Made by a program: the position numbers and the translations under genes. A stretch of 64,000 nucleotides of DNA. Origin: Myxococcaceae bacterium JPH2 (GTDB lineage Bacteria; Myxococcota; Myxococcia; Myxococcales; Myxococcaceae). The notes under the pieces were generated by a model, which saw nothing but the letters and a program-made list of their open reading frames with translations, did no database searches and had not been told where the DNA came from. The DNA lies in contig JAEMGR010000009.1 in assembly GCA_016458225.1 (NCBI GenBank), positions 124,001-188,000 on the forward strand, written 5' to 3'. Each line of letters starts with the position of its first letter. The first letter of the stretch is position 1. Positions 7,049-59,684 of this stretch are shown here, in pieces.

Positions 7049-7139
7049 ATGGATGGCCGCGCCGAGTGTGAGGGTGCAGGAGTGGAACCCACCTCGATCG
7101 CGCCCACGTGAACAAGTCTGATACCCCTGCTCGCGCGTT

Positions 7140-7176
7140 CAACATCCGTCTGCCCCTGGGGATGTTGAGGTTGACA
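7140..7176 (+). promoter_or_regulatory. Inverted repeat and -35-like element before the fibro-slime lipoprotein gene
   Basis: An 8-bp inverted repeat, CAACATCC (7140-7147) and GGATGTTG (7160-7167), is followed at once by TTGACA (7171-7176). A weak -10-like CACGAT lies at 7195-7200, about 18 bp on, which would put transcription almost at the start codon at 7210. The layout suggests an operator abutting a promoter, but the -10 is poor and the regulator unknown. Confidence 0.35.
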
Positions 7177-7209
7177 CCCCGTCCTCGGCCCTCCCACGAT
7201 CGACGGCCT

Positions 7210-8967
7210 ATGGTGACCTCCTCGACCCGCCCCTTGCTTTTGAGGGTGTTGTTGACCTCCCTCATGCTCACCCTCGCCGCTTGCGGGGATTCATCTCCTG
7301 GCAAGGATCCGGACGGTGGCACGGATTCCAGCGACGCGGGCGACGGCGGCCCCAAGCCGACGGTCGCCATCTGCGGCGACAACATCAAGCACGACACCGA
7401 GGCGTGTGACGACGGCAACACCCTCTCGGGTGATGGGTGCTCAGCCAAGTGTGACACCGTCGAGTCGGGCTTCACGTGTCCGGAGGCGGGCAAGCCCTGT
7501 TACCGCATCCCCACCTGCGGCAACGGCGTGGTGGAGACCGGTGAGAGCTGCGACGACCGAAACACCACCTCCGGAGATGGCTGCACGTCGAGCTGCAAGG
7601 AGGAGGCGGGCTGGAACTGCCCCAAGAGCGGTGGCCGCTGCGTGGCCAAGCAGTGCGGCGACAGCATCATCGCGGGCGATGAGGACTGCGACGACGGCAA
7701 CAACAAGCCGGGCGACGGCTGCAGCGCCACCTGCCGCGTCGAGGACAACTTCAAGTGCCCCACGGCCGGCGCCGCGTGCGTGACCATCCGCTGCGGCGAC
7801 GGCGTGGCCGAGGGCAACGAGCAGTGCGACGACGGCAACAACGACATGGGCGACGGCTGCTCGCCCTTGTGCCGCAACGAGCCCAAGTGCCCCAACGGCA
7901 TCTGCCAGGAGGTCTGCGGCGACGGCGTGATGCTCCCCGGCACCACGATCGAGGAGTGCGATGACGGCAACACCCGCGACAACGACGGCTGTTCGCACAC
8001 GTGCAAGAAGGAGCCGGGCTTCACCTGCACCTTCGCCGACACGACCCTGCCGGACGCAGTGAACCTCACCGTCGTCTACCGAGACTTCCGCGGCGCCGAC
8101 CTGCCCGCCGACGGCGTCCTGCCCGCTGGCCACCTCGACTTCGAGAACGAGAACAACACCGAGACGGGCATCCTGGGGGCGCTCTACTCACCGCTGGATC
8201 CCACGACGCACAAGCCGGTGTACGCCAAGGGCGACGGCACGGGCTCCGCGACCACCCACGGCAAGACGGCCTTCGACCAGTGGTACAAGGACACCAAGAA
8301 CGTGAACATTCCGTACGTGTCCACCATGAAGCTGGCCCGCAACACCGCGGGCGGACCCACCTCCGCCATCTACGTCTTCGACGAGCCGAACTTCTTCCCG
8401 CTGGATGACAAGGGTTGGGTGGCGCTGGGCAAGGAGCCCAAGCGCACGAACAATCACAACTTCAGCTTCACCAGCGAGGTCCGCTACTGGTTCGAGTTCA
8501 AGGGCACCGAGGTGCTCGACTTCCGCGGTGACGACGACGTCTGGGTCTACATCAACGGCAAGCTCGCGCTGGATCTGGGCGGCGTGCACGGAGCGCTGAC
8601 CGGCTCGGTCGACCTCACCAAGGCCGCGCCGGTGAGCAGCCTGGGACTCCAGAAGGGCCGCATCTACGAGGTCGTCGTGCTCCAGGCCGAGCGCCACACG
8701 ACCGCGTCCTCGTACAAGCTGACCCTGAGCAACTTCACCACCAGGACGACCTCGTGCACCTCGACCTGCGGCAACGGCACGGTCGAAGCCGGTGAGGAGT
8801 GCGACAACAAGAATGGCAACCTCGGCGGCTACAACCAGTGCTCCCCGGGCTGCGTGTGGGGCCCTCGCTGCGGTGACAAGCACATCGACTCGGACTACGG
8901 CGAGGAGTGCGACGACGGCGGCCCGACGCGCACGTGCAGCGCCGTCTGCAAGTCCATCATCGGCTGA
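7210..8967 (+). CDS. DUF4215 Cys-rich repeat / fibro-slime domain lipoprotein
   Basis: A 585-residue exported lipoprotein. The signal peptide ends in the lipobox LAAC, followed by a short Ser/Asp/Gly linker. Five Cys-rich DUF4215-type repeats (pattern CGD/CGN ... E.CDDGN ... DGC) span about 54-275. A fibro-slime domain (about 289-512), with the typical DFRGDDDVWVYINGKLALDLGG segment split across its core, follows, and two more Cys-rich units close the protein. Fibro-slime domains occur in extracellular matrix and cell-surface proteins of slime moulds and myxobacteria; an adhesive or matrix role is the natural inference. The start gives a complete signal peptide; the 34 codons upstream do not fit. 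Confidence 0.9.
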   Translation: MVTSSTRPLLLRVLLTSLMLTLAACGDSSPGKDPDGGTDSSDAGDGGPKPTVAICGDNIKHDTEACDDGNTLSGDGCSAKCDTVESGFTCPEAGKPCYRIPTCGNGVVETGESCDDRNTTSGDGCTSSCKEEAGWNCPKSGGRCVAKQCGDSIIAGDEDCDDGNNKPGDGCSATCRVEDNFKCPTAGAACVTIRCGDGVAEGNEQCDDGNNDMGDGCSPLCRNEPKCPNGICQEVCGDGVMLPGTTIEECDDGNTRDNDGCSHTCKKEPGFTCTFADTTLPDAVNLTVVYRDFRGADLPADGVLPAGHLDFENENNTETGILGALYSPLDPTTHKPVYAKGDGTGSATTHGKTAFDQWYKDTKNVNIPYVSTMKLARNTAGGPTSAIYVFDEPNFFPLDDKGWVALGKEPKRTNNHNFSFTSEVRYWFEFKGTEVLDFRGDDDVWVYINGKLALDLGGVHGALTGSVDLTKAAPVSSLGLQKGRIYEVVVLQAERHTTASSYKLTLSNFTTRTTSCTSTCGNGTVEAGEECDNKNGNLGGYNQCSPGCVWGPRCGDKHIDSDYGEECDDGGPTRTCSAVCKSIIG

Positions 8968-41266: not shown

Positions 41267-42052
41267 TCACCGGACGACCTCCGGTGCCAGGTCCACGCTC
41301 ACAGGACAGTGGTCCGAGCCGAGCACGTGCGCGTGGATGTCCGCGCGCCGCACGTACCGCATGGCCGCGGGCGTCGCCAGGACGTAGTCGATGCGCCACC
41401 CGATGTTCTTCTCGCGCACCCCGACGCGCTGGCTCCACCACGAGTAGTGGCCGCCTTCGGGCTGGAAGTGCCGGAAGCTGTCCACCCAACCCGAGCGGAT
41501 CCACCGGTCGAACTCCTCGCGCTCCTCGGGGCGAAAGCCGCTCGTCTCGCGATTCTCGCGGGGACGGGCCAGGTCCAGATCCTGGTGCGCGGTGTTGAAG
41601 TCGCCCACCACCAGCACGCGCTCGCCATCGCGCAGCGCCTTCTCCAGCCGCTGATAGAGCTTGCGATAGAAGGCGAGCTTGAAGGGGATGCGGCTGAGGT
41701 CCCGCTCCTTCCCATTGCCGTTGGGGAAGTAGCCGTTCACCACGGTGAGCTTGCCGAAGCGGGCGAACTGCAAGCGCCCCTCGCAGTCCATCTCCCGCAC
41801 ACCCAGCTTCGTCTCCAGGTCATCGGGCGTGGCGCGGCTGTACAGCCCCACCCCGCTGTAGCCCGCGCGCTCCGCCGAGGAGAAGTGCGTCCGCCACCGC
41901 GCGGGGGCGCGCACCTCTTCGGGAAGCTGCTCCTCGGTGGCCCGGACCTCTTGCAAGGCCACCACCTGCGCCCGCGCTCCCGCGAGCCACGGGAGGAATC
42001 CCTTGCGATGCACCGAGCGCAGACCGTTGACGTTCCAAGAGACGACTCGCAC
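41267..42052 (-). CDS. xth: Exodeoxyribonuclease III (ExoA/XthA family AP endonuclease)
   Basis: A 261-residue AP endonuclease/3'-5' exonuclease of base-excision repair. The exonuclease-endonuclease-phosphatase fold motifs are complete: SWNVNGLRS at the start, ALQEVRA with the metal-binding Glu, NGYFPNGNG, GDFNTAHQDLDLA with the catalytic Asp/Asn, and SDHCPVSVDL with the terminal Asp-His. Closest in layout to the ExoA type of Gram-positive and delta-group bacteria. It precedes the plsC-like gene by 22 bp. Confidence 0.95.
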   Translation of the reverse strand: MRVVSWNVNGLRSVHRKGFLPWLAGARAQVVALQEVRATEEQLPEEVRAPARWRTHFSSAERAGYSGVGLYSRATPDDLETKLGVREMDCEGRLQFARFGKLTVVNGYFPNGNGKERDLSRIPFKLAFYRKLYQRLEKALRDGERVLVVGDFNTAHQDLDLARPRENRETSGFRPEEREEFDRWIRSGWVDSFRHFQPEGGHYSWWSQRVGVREKNIGWRIDYVLATPAAMRYVRRADIHAHVLGSDHCPVSVDLAPEVVR

Positions 42053-42161
42053 GCCCCTGCTTATGGCCTGGGCGCGCGGGGTTTTCCAGCCCTGTCCGCT
42101 CGGAAGCCGGGCAAGGCCCCCGCTCCAGTGCTCCGGACGGGGGCCTCCGCCGCCACTTCTG

Positions 42162-45100
42162 TTACGGCTCGGTAGGACTGGTGCGGTTCTGCGGGCCGCG
42201 CGTGGTGCGCAGCACGAAGTCCACCGCGTTGTTGTTCGAGTCGAACCCGTTGCCCAGGTTCACGTCCGCGCCGCTCTCCATGGACGCCGCCGTGGAGCTG
42301 TCGGACGCCTTGCGCTCGAAGCTCCCCGCCACGCCAGGCAGCGAGGGCACGGGCTGGGTCTCGGGGGTGACCGCCGGACCGTAGCCGACGGTGTCCACCA
42401 CCAGAGGGTCCGCGTTGGTGACGCCCAACCCCGCGGAACCGAGGCGCACGTGGCCGCCCTTGGCCGCCGCGGCGGACATGGCGATCGCCGTGCCCCAGTT
42501 CGCGTCGCCCGAGACGGTGCCCTTATACGAGCCGGAGACCACCAGGTAGAAGCCGTGCGGCGCGATGCGCGCGCCCGAGGGCAGCGCATAGCCCACGCCG
42601 TAGTCGCCGGTGGCAGTGCCCGCCTTGTACTGGACCTTCCAGCCGCTCAGGTCCACCTCCTGGTTCGTCGGGTTGTACAGCTCGATGAACTCGTCATCCG
42701 CGCCACCCGTGCCCTGCGGCGCGAACTCGCTGATGACCACGTGGTCCATGGACGGCAGCGGCTTGCCCGTCACGTCGACGGTCGCCGAGACCGTGTGGCC
42801 GCCGACCGTCGCGTACACCGCGCCGCTCCCGCTGTAAGCCCCCGCGATGAAGGTGAACGACACGCGGTCCTTGTTGGCCGGGATGGTGACCGTGGTCGGC
42901 GCCGAGCCCGCGGCGGTCGGAACCACCTCGATGGTCATCGGCGTGTCCTGGAACGTGGGCGGATCCACCAGCACGGTGAAGGTGACCGCCTGACCCGAGG
43001 TCAGGTCCACGGCGGTCGGCGTCATCGAGGACGCGTACGCCGGCTGGTTCGCGGCCAGGACCCAGAGGCGGGACGTGAGGGACACCGCGTCCAGCGTGGC
43101 CGTCATCTGCACGTCCTCCTGGCCCGGCTGCGTCTGCTCAGTCGCCGTGACGATGACCTGCGCGGAGGTGGCTCCGGCTGGCACCACCACCTTGCCCTCG
43201 TTCGCCACCGTGAGGATGGGACTGGACGACGTCACCGTCACCACCGTGTTCACCGGCGCCGGCGCGCTGAGCGTGACGGTCAGCGGCTCCGGGATGGTGG
43301 GGCCCGTGGTGCCCGAGTGCGCGTAGGTGAACGCGGGGGTCATGGCGCTGAGCGTGACAGGCGCGCTCGGCGTCGTGACCAGATCCGTGGCGGAGCGCGG
43401 CTCGATCTTCGAGTTGCTGTTGCGCAGCTCCAACACTCCGGTGATGGACTGGAACACCGTCCCCACGGTGGGCATGGTCGCCTTGAACAGGTAGTCGTTG
43501 ATGCGCAGCACGCCCGCCACCTCGAACTCATTGGTGGGCGCCGTGTCGCCATTGACGGGCGGCAGGGACACCGCCGTCACCGTCACCGGAGCCACGCGCA
43601 CGAGCACGCTCTCCAGCGCGGTGGCGCGCGAGCCACCCGTCGCGACCTCCGAGGCCAACACGGTCTGCGCCGGGGGCGCCGAGCTGCCGTGACTGGTCAC
43701 GGTGAACACGGGGTTGGTGAGCTCCACCTGGCCGAAGTAGGTGGCCACGGACGCCGACGAGATGTTCACGCGGTCGCCCATGCTCACCGTCGCGCTCGGG
43801 TCGGTGCTCGTGAAGACGAACAGGCCCGAGTAGTCCGCGCCCTCGTAGCCGTTGTCCATCGGGTGCGTCTGCACGAAGTAGCCGTTGCGACCCACGCCGG
43901 TGACGAGCGCCTGGTTCAGCGCGACCACCTTGCCCACCCACGGCGAGTTGCCCGCCGCGTTCGGGCGCTTCACGGAGTAGATGCTCAGGAGGCACGCCTC
44001 GCCGTTGCCGTTGGGCGTGGGGCACAGGTCGCACGCATCACCCATTCCGTCGCCGTCCGAGTCCTCCTGACCCGGGTTGGGCGTGGTGGGGCAGTTGTCG
44101 ATGCTGTTGCCCACGCCATCCCCATCCGAGTCGTTGGGGTTGGGCGCCGTGCACTGCACGGAGTACGCCTGGAGCGGGCACACGTCGCAGGCATCGCCCA
44201 CGCCGTCGCCGTCCACGTCACCCTGGACGCCCTGGTCCATCGGGCGCACCGGGTTGAAGACCGCCGGGCAGTTGTCCTGCGTGTCCGGGATGCCGTCGCC
44301 GTCGATGTCCGTCCCCGTGGGATCGCCGCTGTAGCGCGTGGAGCTGCTCACCGAGCCGGGCCACCGCGAGTCGGTGGAGGACCGCTGAGGCTCGCAAGCG
44401 GGCTCGTTCGGAGGCGTCTCCGTACAAGCGAACAGGCCGTAGGGGTTGGAGACCTGCGACGCCAGCGTCGTGTACGACTTGTTCAGCTCGGACTGGAGGC
44501 ACACCGCGTGGGGCGTGCCGCACACGTCCACCGTGTCACAGCCGGTGGACAGCGCGTTGACGAGCGCCTGCTCGCCGTAGAGCACCTTGCCGCCACGCAG
44601 CGTCAGCGCCACGTCGGCCGGCATCGCGGAGATGACCGCGCGGTGCGGCGAGTCTCCGTGCGTCCCCAGCCGGAAGATGGCCACGTCCGCCACCTTGCCC
44701 ACCGCCAGCGCGCCGATGCGGTTCGCCTTCAGCGCGTTCGCCGCGTTGCCCGTCACGGTCGCCCACAGGTCCGCGTCGCTCAGCGCGAAGTTGTAATAGG
44801 TCGCGTTCAGGTTGTCCGCGCACCGCAGCTCGCGCAGCAGGTTCATGGAGCCGGTGGGCAGCCAGTCCGTGCCCAGCGCGACGTTCACGCCGAGCCGCTT
44901 GTAGAGCGGGATGTCCGCCGTGTCGCCGTAGAGCGCCACGTTCGAGCGCGGCGACCAGATGAGGCTGCTGCCCTGCGTGCTCATGAGGGCGACGTCCGAC
45001 ACGCGCAGGCCAATGCCGTGGATGATCGCCGTGCGAGCGCCGATCAGGTTCTGGCCGCCCGTGGCCTGGCCGGAGAGGCACAGGAACTCGTTGTTGGCGG

Positions 45101-46919
45101 ACTTCTCGATGCCCTCGGAGACGTGCGGGAGGTAGGCCGCGTCCTGCGGGATATCGCTGGGCTTGTCGATGCTCGGGTAGCCGCAGCCGCTCGTGAGCTC
45201 CGTGCCCGTGGCGCCGTCGCCCAGCGGGAACGTCTGGTAGTTCACGCCGCTGCTGCTCGCATTGAGGCCCTCCTGGTTGCCGCCGCTGCTGCTCGTGTTC
45301 GCCCTGTCCAGGTTGCGCAGCAGGCCGTTCTGTCCGCCAGAGCCCGCGATGGACGTGGTGCCCGCCATCACCTGCCGCAGCTCGGCCCACTCGATGCCCG
45401 CCGAGCTCGTGGTCCCCCCCGAGGGGATCATCGTGTGCCCGTTGTTGCCCTTGCGCCAGTCGTGGCGGTGCTCGTAGCGCTGATCATTGAACGTGTAGGG
45501 CTTGCCCTGGAACGTGATGTGGTCGTGCGAGTTGATGAGACCCGGCGACACGACGCCCTGCGGGCAGACCACCTGCGTCGCCGTCGCAGCGCCGGCCGCC
45601 GCGCTGCAATCGCAGCTCACGCACTGGATGACGCCGGCCGAGTCGAACAGCACCTGACCGCCCGCGTACACCTTGTCCGGAGCCAGGATGACACCGGTGA
45701 TCAACTTGCTCGTCCCCGTGCCCGGGGTCACCTGGCACGTGCCGCTCGTCGGAGGCGGCAGCGACGCCGCGGGGCACATCACCACCGTGCCCGGTCCACC
45801 CGTACCTGCATCCGTGGACGTCCCGGCGTCGGTCTGCATTCCTGCATCCGTGGACGTCCCGGCGTCGGTCTGCGTGCCCGCGTCGGTGGTCGTGCCAGCG
45901 TCGGTCTGCGTGCCGGCATCATCGTTGGAGCCGGCGTCCGTGGACGTACCCGCATCGGTCTGCGTCCCCGCATCCGTCTGCGTTCCCGCGTCCGTAGTGG
46001 TACCCGCGTCGGTCTGCGTGCCGGCATCATCGTTGGAACCGGCATCCGTGGACGTACCCGCATCGGTCTGCGTCCCGGCATCCGTCTGCGTTCCCGCGTC
46101 CGTAGAGGTACCCGCGTCGGTCTGCGTGCCCGCGTCCGTAGAGGTACCCGCATCCGTCGACGTACCGGCATCCGTGGAGGTACCCGCGTCGGTCTGCGTT
46201 CCCGCATCCGTCGACGTACCGGCGTCCGTGGACGTCCCGGCGTCGGTCTGCGTTCCCGCCTCCGTCGACGTACCGGCGTCCGTGGACGTCCCGGCGTCGG
46301 TCTGCGTTCCCGCCTCCGTCGACGTACCGGCGTCCGTGGACGTCCCGGCGTCGGTCTGCGTTCCCGCATCCGTCGACGTACCGGCGTCCGTGGACGTCCC
46401 GGCGTCGGTCTGCGTTCCCGCATCCGTCGACGTGCCGGCGTCCGTGGTCGTGCCCGCGTCGGTCTGCGTTCCCGCATCCGTCGACGTGCCGGCATCCGTG
46501 GTCGTGCCCGCGTCGGTCTGCGTGCCAGCATCCTCATTCGTGCCGGCGTCGGTGTGCGTCCCGGCATCATCCGAGCCCGCGTCCGTCTGCGTCCCCGCGT
46601 CGTCGCCCGCGTCCGGCTTCGGATTCACCGGCGTGACGGTGCACGTGTTCTCGCACCCATCCCCGTTGACTCGGTTGCCGTCGTCACAGGCCTCGCCCGT
46701 CTCGACCTTCCCGTTGCCGCAGACCGGCGAGCCGCTCCCCGGCTTCGCCGGCTGGCACGTGTGACTGCAGGAATCCCCATCCGCGACGTTGCCGTCGTCG
46801 CAGGCTTCGCCCTTCTCGACGATGCCGTTTCCACAGACAGGATCGTTGTCACCACACGCGGATAGCAGCACGGTCACCGCACAAAGCGGCACCAGCAGCC
46901 ATCGGGACGACCAAGACAT
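42162..46919 (-). CDS. Mosaic lipoprotein: DUF4215, TDAGTS repeats, amidohydrolase, thrombospondin-3 repeats, lamin-tail domain
   Basis: A 1585-residue surface lipoprotein. Signal peptide with lipobox LLSAC; two DUF4215 Cys-rich repeats (about 27-95); a low-complexity stalk of six-residue units ([12 protein letters not shown], about 104-375). An amidohydrolase domain (about 400-797) has the metal motif [10 protein letters not shown] and [11 protein letters not shown]. Then come Ca2+-binding thrombospondin type-3 repeats (about 864-977; [15 protein letters not shown]), an OB/ExeM-type beta region, Ig-like segments, and a lamin-tail domain ([19 protein letters not shown], about 1387-1450). Amidohydrolases are usually cytoplasmic; here one is placed on a stalk outside the cell. 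Start ATG 46919 gives a complete signal peptide. Confidence 0.9.
45910..46125. repeat. 108-bp direct repeat, two copies, in the lipoprotein stalk
   Basis: Units 45910-46017 and 46018-46125 are nearly identical over 108 bp, differing at a handful of positions. Each encodes 36 residues of the TDAGT-type stalk including the variant SNDDAG. The length is a multiple of both 3 and 18, so copy changes keep the frame. Confidence 0.9.
46201..46524. repeat. 54-bp direct repeat, six copies, in the lipoprotein stalk
   Basis: Six back-to-back 54-bp units (starting at 46201, 46255, 46309, 46363, 46417 and 46471) are almost identical; units 2 and 3 match exactly by eye. Each is built from three 18-bp units encoding TDAGTS-like hexapeptides. 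The low divergence points to recent slippage or recombination, so length polymorphism among strains is likely. Confidence 0.95.
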
Positions 46920-58523: not shown

Positions 58524-59684
58524 ATGCCCCACGCCTCCTGTCATCACCTGTCGCCGTCCCTGACGGCTCGTGCCGTGCCCACTTTCCTGGGTGCGTACGC
58601 GCGCTTGATTTCCGCCGCCGTCTGCGCGGCGCTCCTCTCTGCCTGCGGAGGCGGAAGCAACTCCAATCCTGAGCCCGACCCGGGTGGCGCCTCTGGCGCA
58701 GCGGTGGTCACCACCTTGGCCGGCAGCACCACCGCAGGCAGCGCCAACGGCACGGGCGCGGCGGCCAGCTTCAAGGGCCCCATGGGCATCGCCACGGACA
58801 GCCAGGGCAACGTCTATGTGGCCGAGTTCAACAACCACCTCATCCGCAAGATCACCCCGGCGGGTGTTGTCACCACGCTGGCCGGCAGCGGCAGCAGCGG
58901 CAGCTCGAATGGGATGGGCACCGCCGCCAGCTTCAATTCCCCCAGTGGAGTGGCCGTCGACGCCTCGGGCAACGTCTATGTGGCCGACTCGTTCAACGGG
59001 ATGATCCGCAAGATCACCCCGGCGGGAATGGTCAGCACCATGGCCGGCAGCACCACCCCGGGCAACACCAACGCCACCGGCACGGCCGCCAGTTTCCGAG
59101 GCCCCCTCGGGGTGGCCGTGGACGCATCAGGCAACGTCTACGTGGCTGACTCCGGCAACAAGTTGATTCGCAAGATCACCCCGGCCGGCGTGGTCAGCAC
59201 CCTGGCCGGCAGCGGCGAATATGGCAGCACCAATGGCACCGGCACAGCCGCCAGCTTCTCGGGCCCCCGAGCGGTCGCCGTGGACTCCTCCGGCAACGTC
59301 TATGTGGCCGAGCCCTCCAGCAACCTGATCCGCAAGGTCACGGCGGCCGGAGTGGTCAGCACCCTGGTCGGCACTGGCGCCGTCGGCAGCGCGGACGGCA
59401 CCGGGACCGCCGCCAGCTTCGCGGATCCGATGGGCGTGACGGTGGATGCCTCGGGGAATGTCTTTGTCTCCAGCATCGCGGACAACCTGATCCGCAAGGT
59501 CACCTCCGCGGGCGTGGTCACGACCCTCGCGGGCAAGGCCGGAGTCGGCAGCAACGGCAGCGCGGATGGCACGGGCGCGGAGGCGCGCTTCAATCTGCCC
59601 CAAGCCGTGACCGTGGATGCCTCCGGAAATCTCTACGTGGCGGACTACGGCAACAACATGATCCGCAAGCTCCGTCTGCCCTGA
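58524..59684 (+). CDS. NHL-repeat beta-propeller lipoprotein
   Basis: A 386-residue exported protein with a long N-region, lipobox LLSAC (near residues 37-41) and a short Gly/Ser/Pro linker. Six NHL repeats of about 52-57 residues follow. Each has a blade of the form FxxPxGVAVDASGNVYVADS, then NLIRKITPAGVVSTLAGS, and together they would close a six-bladed propeller. The repeats are strongly alike, suggesting recent internal duplication. NHL propellers bind proteins, RNA or carbohydrates, and no catalytic signature is seen. Confidence 0.9.
   Translation: MPHASCHHLSPSLTARAVPTFLGAYARLISAAVCAALLSACGGGSNSNPEPDPGGASGAAVVTTLAGSTTAGSANGTGAAASFKGPMGIATDSQGNVYVAEFNNHLIRKITPAGVVTTLAGSGSSGSSNGMGTAASFNSPSGVAVDASGNVYVADSFNGMIRKITPAGMVSTMAGSTTPGNTNATGTAASFRGPLGVAVDASGNVYVADSGNKLIRKITPAGVVSTLAGSGEYGSTNGTGTAASFSGPRAVAVDSSGNVYVAEPSSNLIRKVTAAGVVSTLVGTGAVGSADGTGTAASFADPMGVTVDASGNVFVSSIADNLIRKVTSAGVVTTLAGKAGVGSNGSADGTGAEARFNLPQAVTVDASGNLYVADYGNNMIRKLRLP

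Follow-up and report, generated by a model that had tools for sequence, protein, structure and literature searches.

A conserved myxobacterial lipoprotein carrying a predicted deaminase-type amidohydrolase domain, probably at the outer cell surface

What might an amidohydrolase do when it is built, within one lipoprotein, between a repetitive linker and a long tail of accessory modules? The question is raised by an open reading frame (ORF) of Myxococcaceae bacterium JPH2, which encodes a 1585-residue lipoprotein (42162-46919 on the minus strand, start ATG at 46919). It lies on contig JAEMGR010000009.1; all coordinates refer to the window, that is, the whole stretch of 64,000 nucleotides analyzed (contig positions 124,001 to 188,000). 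A preliminary description, made from the sequence by inspection, had proposed a surface-displayed enzyme with an architecture not known from any characterised protein. The protein is conserved and its enzyme is probably active extracellularly; its phylum-wide family is made of known parts. That it is an extracellular deaminase with a nucleic-acid-related class of substrates is the reading preferred here, and confidence in it is evenly poised.

The enzyme domain was missed when the full-length protein was scanned with Pfam, a scan that returned two DUF4215 stretches (E 1.1e-9), three TSP_3 stretches (1.3e-10) and a lamin-tail domain (LTD; 1392-1514, 5e-17). When residues 395-815 were scanned alone, PF01979 matched with E 7e-14 and 52.2 bits (gathering threshold 25), which assigns them to the amidohydrolase superfamily. 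These four domain types of the preliminary description were thereby recovered, the enzyme on the isolated domain; its span is about 395-815, not 400-797 as first given. An AlphaFold2 model of the domain, built with 80 aligned family members, reached a predicted local distance difference test (pLDDT) of 90.3 and a predicted template modeling score (pTM) of 0.92. Its top match in VIA-align was 4gbd, a zinc-containing adenosine/methylthioadenosine (MTA) deaminase (Z 35.0, root-mean-square deviation 2.7, 352 aligned residues), followed by isocytosine, aminofutalosine and guanine deaminases and triazine hydrolases; all 50 rows listed (Z 27-35) were deaminases, triazine hydrolases or related enzymes. 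The domain and its putative active site are placed as follows:

44475..45737, minus strand: amidohydrolase domain, subtype-III deaminase-like, residues 395-815 (PF01979; AlphaFold2; VIA)
45519..45527, minus strand: predicted metal ligands His465 and His467 (HxH after strand 1; 80/80)
45114..45125, minus strand: His599 (predicted beta-5 ligand) and Glu602 (HxxE), each 80/80; aligned with HVAE of a HutF-like protein of the same genome
45018..45020, minus strand: His634 (beta-6 His; 79/80 in alignment A3, 27/29 in A2)
44865..44867, minus strand: Asp685 (GTDW, predicted beta-8 ligand; 80/80)

A scan of named genomes yielded 390 relatives, the best 80 of which were kept. Alignment A3 comprises 80 sequences, namely the window protein, a second copy from its own genome and 78 of the 80 kept loci (L086 and L099 were excluded, as the profile split the domain). 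Domain residues His71, His73, His205, Glu208 and Asp291 (= His465, His467, His599, Glu602 and Asp685) are invariant in all of them, and His240 (= His634) is kept in 79, being Gln in L087. In alignment A2, the beta-6 His is found in 27 of 29 sequences, and is Gln in L022 and L023; the Gln shared by L022, L023 and L087 may mark altered chemistry. In the domain model, each His or Asp ligand comes after one of the strands 67-69, 201-204, 236-239 and 285-288, and the beta-5, beta-6 and beta-8 sites align with the HutF-like protein (hhalign probability 61, E 8e-5; HutF named by eye). Subtype-III enzymes of the superfamily are defined by HxH, a beta-5 His, a beta-8 Asp and the lack of a carboxylated Lys on beta-4. 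As no Lys is invariant or nearly invariant in the family alignment, a subtype-I enzyme (prolidase/phosphotriesterase-like, with a carboxy-lysine or carbamate centre) is unlikely. The ligands, the absence of Lys, the strand positions and the similarity of the modeled fold (Z 35) fit subtype III, the deaminase type, and conserved residues and predicted fold together point to a catalytically complete site for a single metal. The preliminary description had taken the metal site to be intact, which the alignment, checked against the predicted fold, bears out: with the ligands in 80/80 and the beta-6 His in 79/80 sequences, no loss of a metal ligand was seen.

A pseudo-enzyme is likewise unlikely, given the conserved ligands and the ratio of nonsynonymous to synonymous substitution rates (dN/dS). 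Compared with Citreicoccus inhibens, dN/dS is 0.20-0.37 in every folded part, indicating purifying selection, and the ORF is therefore not a chance frame. The value for the linker (0.085) is unreliable because just 187 of 282 residues align. A TTG-extended frame reaches 46997, but this extension is unneeded because the N-terminal residues already read, by eye, as a lipoprotein signal. The 1642-residue ORF on the opposite strand (41937-46865) appears to be the usual antisense artefact of GC-rich DNA.

From the N- to the C-terminus, the protein is composed of a lipobox, two DUF4215 repeats, a TDAGTS linker, the amidohydrolase domain, thrombospondin type-3 (TSP3) repeats, an OB module, two immunoglobulin (Ig)-like domains and the LTD. 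All modules named in the preliminary description are real, yet OB and Ig, which it had counted as one, are separate, so that there are seven types instead of six. Outside the enzyme domain, the features are:

46854..46919, minus strand: signal peptide and lipobox LSAC/G, Cys22 being position +1 (sequence)
46746..46838, minus strand: DUF4215/Cys-rich acidic repeat 1, residues ~28-58 (Pfam PF13948; NCBIfam TIGR02232, E 7.7e-19, 67.2 bits vs 20.8)
46635..46727, minus strand: DUF4215/Cys-rich acidic repeat 2, residues ~65-95 (same Pfam and NCBIfam models)
45786..46631, minus strand: low-complexity TDAGTS linker, residues ~97-378, ~280 residues (tandem repeats)
44022..44309, minus strand: TSP3 calcium-binding repeats, residues 871-966 (PF02412; COMP 3fby, phmmer E 1.6e-24)
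43356..43982, minus strand: OB module of ExeM/NucH type, residues 980-1188 (NF033681 matches of relatives)
42765..43355, minus strand: two Ig-like (Big-type) domains, residues ~1189-1385 (AlphaFold2; VIA)
42378..42746, minus strand: LTD, residues 1392-1514 (PF00932, E 5e-17, 62.7 bits vs 34.3)

The lipobox supports the earlier assignment as a lipoprotein. According to PMC3222651, Lys at +2 marks inner-membrane lipoproteins in Myxococcus xanthus (8/12), and Ala at +7 those of the extracellular matrix (ECM; 7/10). The window protein has Gly at +2 and Val at +7; because these match neither signal, it would by default reside in the outer membrane, its lipobox without Lys at +2 being that predicted of an outer-membrane lipoprotein. 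Among 73 relatives with complete N-ends, 50 have a lipobox by a simple pattern (the 23 misses include L124 of M. xanthus, whose HAGC falls outside it); none of the 50 has Lys at +2, and three have Ala at +7. The enzyme domain holds 8-12 Cys (mean 10.98, n = 80); at 11 positions, Cys is shared by 78-80 of the 80 A3 sequences. Conserved Cys in this number suggest export, as expected for an oxidized extracellular protein. L014, the sole relative without an obvious signal, has three Cys in the matched part, but in five tailless lipoprotein relatives the number runs from 5 to 12, and Cys number alone therefore does not separate these groups. The tailless relatives (L074, L076, L077, L078 and L079) form a separate group of amidohydrolase lipoproteins of ~500-600 residues (signal by eye) that lack the TSP3-OB-Ig-LTD tail.

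An experimental hint comes from M. xanthus, in which the "metal dependent amidohydrolase" MXAN_0886 is listed with a >65-fold excess in outer-membrane vesicles (OMVs) over the outer membrane (Berleman et al, 2014; PMC4158809). In the same table, MXAN_0889 is given as "RCC1 repeat domain protein". In strain AM003 of M. xanthus, the family gene (L124) is followed by genes for a TetR regulator and a metallophosphoesterase (both on the minus strand) and, at +3, for an RCC1-repeat lipoprotein (names by eye). As this position matches the numbering of MXAN_0889, L124 very probably corresponds to MXAN_0886, judged by gene order rather than by the DK1622 record. MXAN_0886 is very likely to be of the same family; the AM003 gene groups with the second paralogue of the JPH2 genome, and its linker, unlike that of the window protein, lacks TDAGTS. 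In the open-access literature searched, no functional study of the family was found, and MXAN_0886 was named solely in PMC4158809. PMC3222651 lists a further M. xanthus amidohydrolase, MXAN0075, among the ECM proteins. A profile comparison with a second secreted amidohydrolase (L188) aligned the C-terminal half alone. Lipobox, conserved Cys, the absence of Lys at +2 in the 50 relatives and a probable homologue enriched in OMVs agree with the export assumed in the preliminary description, and the protein is probably lipid-anchored on the outer cell surface.

The family is far from rare. Across the phylum, 118 of 195 genomes (own genome included) and 50 of 90 genera carried its enzyme domain at E 1e-20; in a set of 60 genomes, again own included, 32 had it. 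By title, the best 80 of the 390 relatives are Myxococcota or delta-proteobacterial bins, except for one labeled Comamonas (sp. KCTC 72670; L130, BNCN01000015.1), which nests with Myxococcus in the tree and whose label may be wrong. Pfam (E 0.001) was run on 35 full-length members, that is, the window protein and 34 of 37 relatives picked from 67 complete ORFs (A5; L146, L157 and L163 left out to stay within 50,000 residues): LTD, amidohydrolase and TSP3 were each found in 33, and DUF4215 in 25. An architecture unique to the window protein is thus rejected, and the arrangement is common in myxobacteria. The TDAGTS stalk, whose DNA array was detected by Tandem Repeats Finder, is a linker for which other members have substitutes. 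This N-terminal linker is the most variable part (median 96 residues, range 35-279, in 50 scored relatives) and elsewhere consists of GGGST, GGSTA, SSTGST or TDAG repeats (by eye). In a lipoprotein-like protein on another contig of the genome (L015, C3, 1003-2772, minus strand), a TDAGTS-type linker precedes a PF03372 domain (32.3 bits vs 24.5), so this linker is common to different enzymes.

A second full-length paralogue, without the TDAGTS stalk, is encoded on contig C5 of the same genome (L013, 4177-9063, minus strand). In the tree (quick search with SH-aLRT supports; L086 restored; long branches flagged in the outgroup), L013 and L124 share a 24-member clade (support 100). The window gene belongs to a minor-paralogue clade of seven, made up of two Citreicoccus, four Myxococcus and Archangium violaceum (support 90, drawn open inside). 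Directly downstream (~85-110 bases) of the family gene, five of the six other members of this clade carry xth; in the Archangium locus, xth is ~4.3 kb downstream. The gene plsC was found in five. No pathway is indicated by the neighborhood. Just upstream of the window-gene orthologue of C. inhibens (L046), fragments of a second amidohydrolase interrupted by stops (G001:C46:162440-162893) are perhaps the remains of a tandem duplicate.

What the tail contributes was approached through the relatives, aligned as A4 (44 of 68 tails, up to 830 residues, plus the window protein) and A6 (29 of 45 rows). The OB/Ig-like part of the window protein has no Pfam match. In 27 of 29 family members, however, the individual OB region matches the ExeM/NucH nuclease model NF033681 (best E 1.1e-12); the four matches printed, of five tried, cover model positions 4-118 of 546, ahead of the nuclease. 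At 30-44 bits against a cut-off of 300, and with no endonuclease/exonuclease/phosphatase (EEP) family in the Pfam tables of the 35 members, the family does not score as an ExeM/NucH nuclease. On the OB part, Pfam matches were scattered over six families, none hit by more than one of the 29 members (best E 0.0012); phmmer against the PDB with a single OB region gave just two viral envelope chains with E above 0.5, and the OB profile weakly matches single-stranded DNA-binding SSBs there (E 0.005). The OB fold is assigned from sequence. In related genomes, the OB profile found two proteins, L222 and L223, with an OB module followed by an EEP domain (PF03372, 52.7 and 53.6 bits vs 24.5). A tail copy with LTD in G006 (L218), whose open frame begins inside the OB module, is possibly broken or cut by the contig end; the enzyme domain was not found in G006 at 1e-20. 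The two Ig-like domains, modeled at about 1186-1385, rest on AlphaFold2 and on VIA similarity (Z 9.8-10.8) to SbsC, Big_2-CBM56, intimin and LigA; Foldseek with the whole tail returned mostly Ig-type chains (query-length TM no higher than 0.18 among the 50 rows listed). According to PMC6085458, the OB-containing region of Shewanella oneidensis ExeM is crucial for nuclease activity, and its LTD is needed for full activity.

The tail also bears on two other explanations. One holds that this is ordinary module shuffling, a secreted amidohydrolase fitted with generic myxobacterial surface parts that have no special link to nucleic acids. DUF4215, TSP3, LTD and TDAG linkers do occur on several other proteins of the genome; yet the set of amidohydrolase, TSP3, OB, Ig and LTD is retained phylum-wide, where freely shuffled parts should vary, and this account seems somewhat unlikely. 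The other makes TSP3, Ig and LTD an adhesive surface fibre for cohesion or matrix, with the enzyme secondary. The resemblance of the TSP3 region to MtsC, a cell-cell cohesion protein (63 bits vs a 350-bit cut-off), would suit a fibre, as would two tight groups of tail length (of 72 scored tails, 45 have 700-840 residues, 23 have 950-1030 and four under 400), but a pure scaffold has no need of catalytic residues kept in 80/80 sequences, and L153 and L156 retain the enzyme with a tail of <400 residues (which could be frameshifts or assembly errors). A primarily adhesive role is, on balance, doubtful.

Under the preferred reading, the N-terminal lipid would anchor the protein in the outer membrane, and probably in OMVs as well, with the enzyme facing outward and held off the membrane by the disordered linker. 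The tail of TSP3 calcium loops, Ig-like domains, OB module and LTD would keep it near its substrate, be it nucleic acid or matrix. A single divalent metal would promote the hydrolytic deamination, and Glu602 and Asp685 would serve as acid/base, judging by analogous enzymes. The substrates would be nucleobases, nucleosides and related N-heterocycles from nucleic acids of prey or matrix, and the outcome the salvage of nitrogen and bases. Two features make such deamination appear likeliest: OB and LTD are accessory domains in ExeM-type nucleases, and the enzyme is folded like deaminases of the purine/nucleoside and related types. A stricter version, in which the ExeM nuclease has been replaced by a base deaminase, tethered to the surface, that acts on nucleic acid or oligonucleotides held by the OB/LTD tail, is very improbable. 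The modeled barrel is poor in helices from strand 1 to strand 5, which might leave the active site accessible to a larger substrate.

Several observations weigh against the extracellular deaminase. Between beta-1 and beta-5, a part that helps shape the pocket (profile positions 82-193), none of the best stretches of 18 PDB profile matches gives coverage, and specificity therefore cannot be transferred, nor a substrate named, by homology. This region is family-specific, with invariant E89, R91, W94 and R95 (domain numbering). The beta-6 Gln of L087 occurs in the Archangium representative of the clade that holds the window gene itself. Because the OB region of the window protein was not itself significant in the library search (PRK07218 only, E 0.098), it was assigned through relatives; seven weaker hits of the OB profile (L221, L226-L231) showed no nuclease recognizable by eye, and sugars or proteins are frequent ligands of OB and Ig folds. 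MXAN_0886 is nearer the second paralogue than the window gene in the tree, and OMV enrichment does not prove surface exposure. Finally, exonuclease III, whose gene adjoins a family gene in five related loci, is an ordinary repair enzyme, so that this adjacency gives little support.

Alternatively, the surface enzyme might deaminate or hydrolyze a diffusible heterocycle (a pterin, a purine-type signal or an antibiotic) and so quench a signal or toxin instead of serving nutrition. The same fold spans triazine, guanine, isocytosine and nucleoside enzymes, the protein is conserved throughout a phylum whose members produce and encounter numerous secondary metabolites, and the OMV placement of the homologue would suit detoxification. 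Upstream of the window gene are genes for a major facilitator superfamily (MFS) transporter and a LysR regulator, but neither was matched in the 83 loci compared (15 neighbor genes tested); moreover, the window-type gene lies beside xth and plsC, and the other paralogue beside a kinase and an ATP-grasp gene. Quenching is considered unlikely, although the rival explanations overlap in part. For prey lysis, a function suggested in the preliminary description, this analysis gave no evidence; enzymes of this class act on small N-heterocycles.

Two further observations concern the window. At 7108-8967 (plus strand), it encodes a protein in which five stretches of DUF4215 are combined with a PA14 domain; both domain types are those of TraA, the protein of myxobacterial cell-cell recognition, but their order is reversed. 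At 58704-59535, a tandem repeat of 162 bases in ~5 copies lies mostly inside a plus-strand ORF (58524-59684).

The window protein represents a conserved, apparently intact exported enzyme, the probable M. xanthus member of which is among the most OMV-enriched proteins. If nucleobases or pterins are indeed deaminated, the family would offer a handle on the use of prey nucleic acids by predators or on the extracellular silencing of small-molecule signals, and the OB and lamin-tail module would serve extracellular enzymes beyond nucleases.

Compared with known systems, the enzyme most resembles subtype-III deaminases of the TRZ/ATZ type (COG0402-like), such as the adenosine/MTA deaminase of Pseudomonas aeruginosa (4gbd/4dyk): the predicted fold (Z 34-35), HxH, the beta-5 His with HxxE, the beta-6 His and the beta-8 Asp are shared. 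It differs from them in its low identity (~23%), in being Cys-rich and, by prediction, exported and lipid-anchored, and in the family-specific EHRHDWRxGxxGHT loop and WSPRSN motif. The cut-offs of NCBIfam equivalogs were missed by far (8-oxoguanine deaminase 51.8 vs 532, 5'-deoxyadenosine deaminase 47 vs 522, guanine deaminase 46 vs 375.4 bits), as were those of all amidohydrolase-type models among the matches listed (25 of 27). With MtsC and other TSP3 cohesion proteins of myxobacteria, it has the TSP3 repeats in common, the MtsC model NF047638 matching residues 864-965 only (E 2.6e-17). With the ExeM/NucH nucleases, it shares the OB module, the lamin-tail domain (ExeM domains as given in PMC6085458) and a predicted extracellular location; in place of the EEP nuclease domain, which was not detected in the family, it carries the deaminase-type enzyme, to which TSP3 repeats and Ig-like domains have been added.

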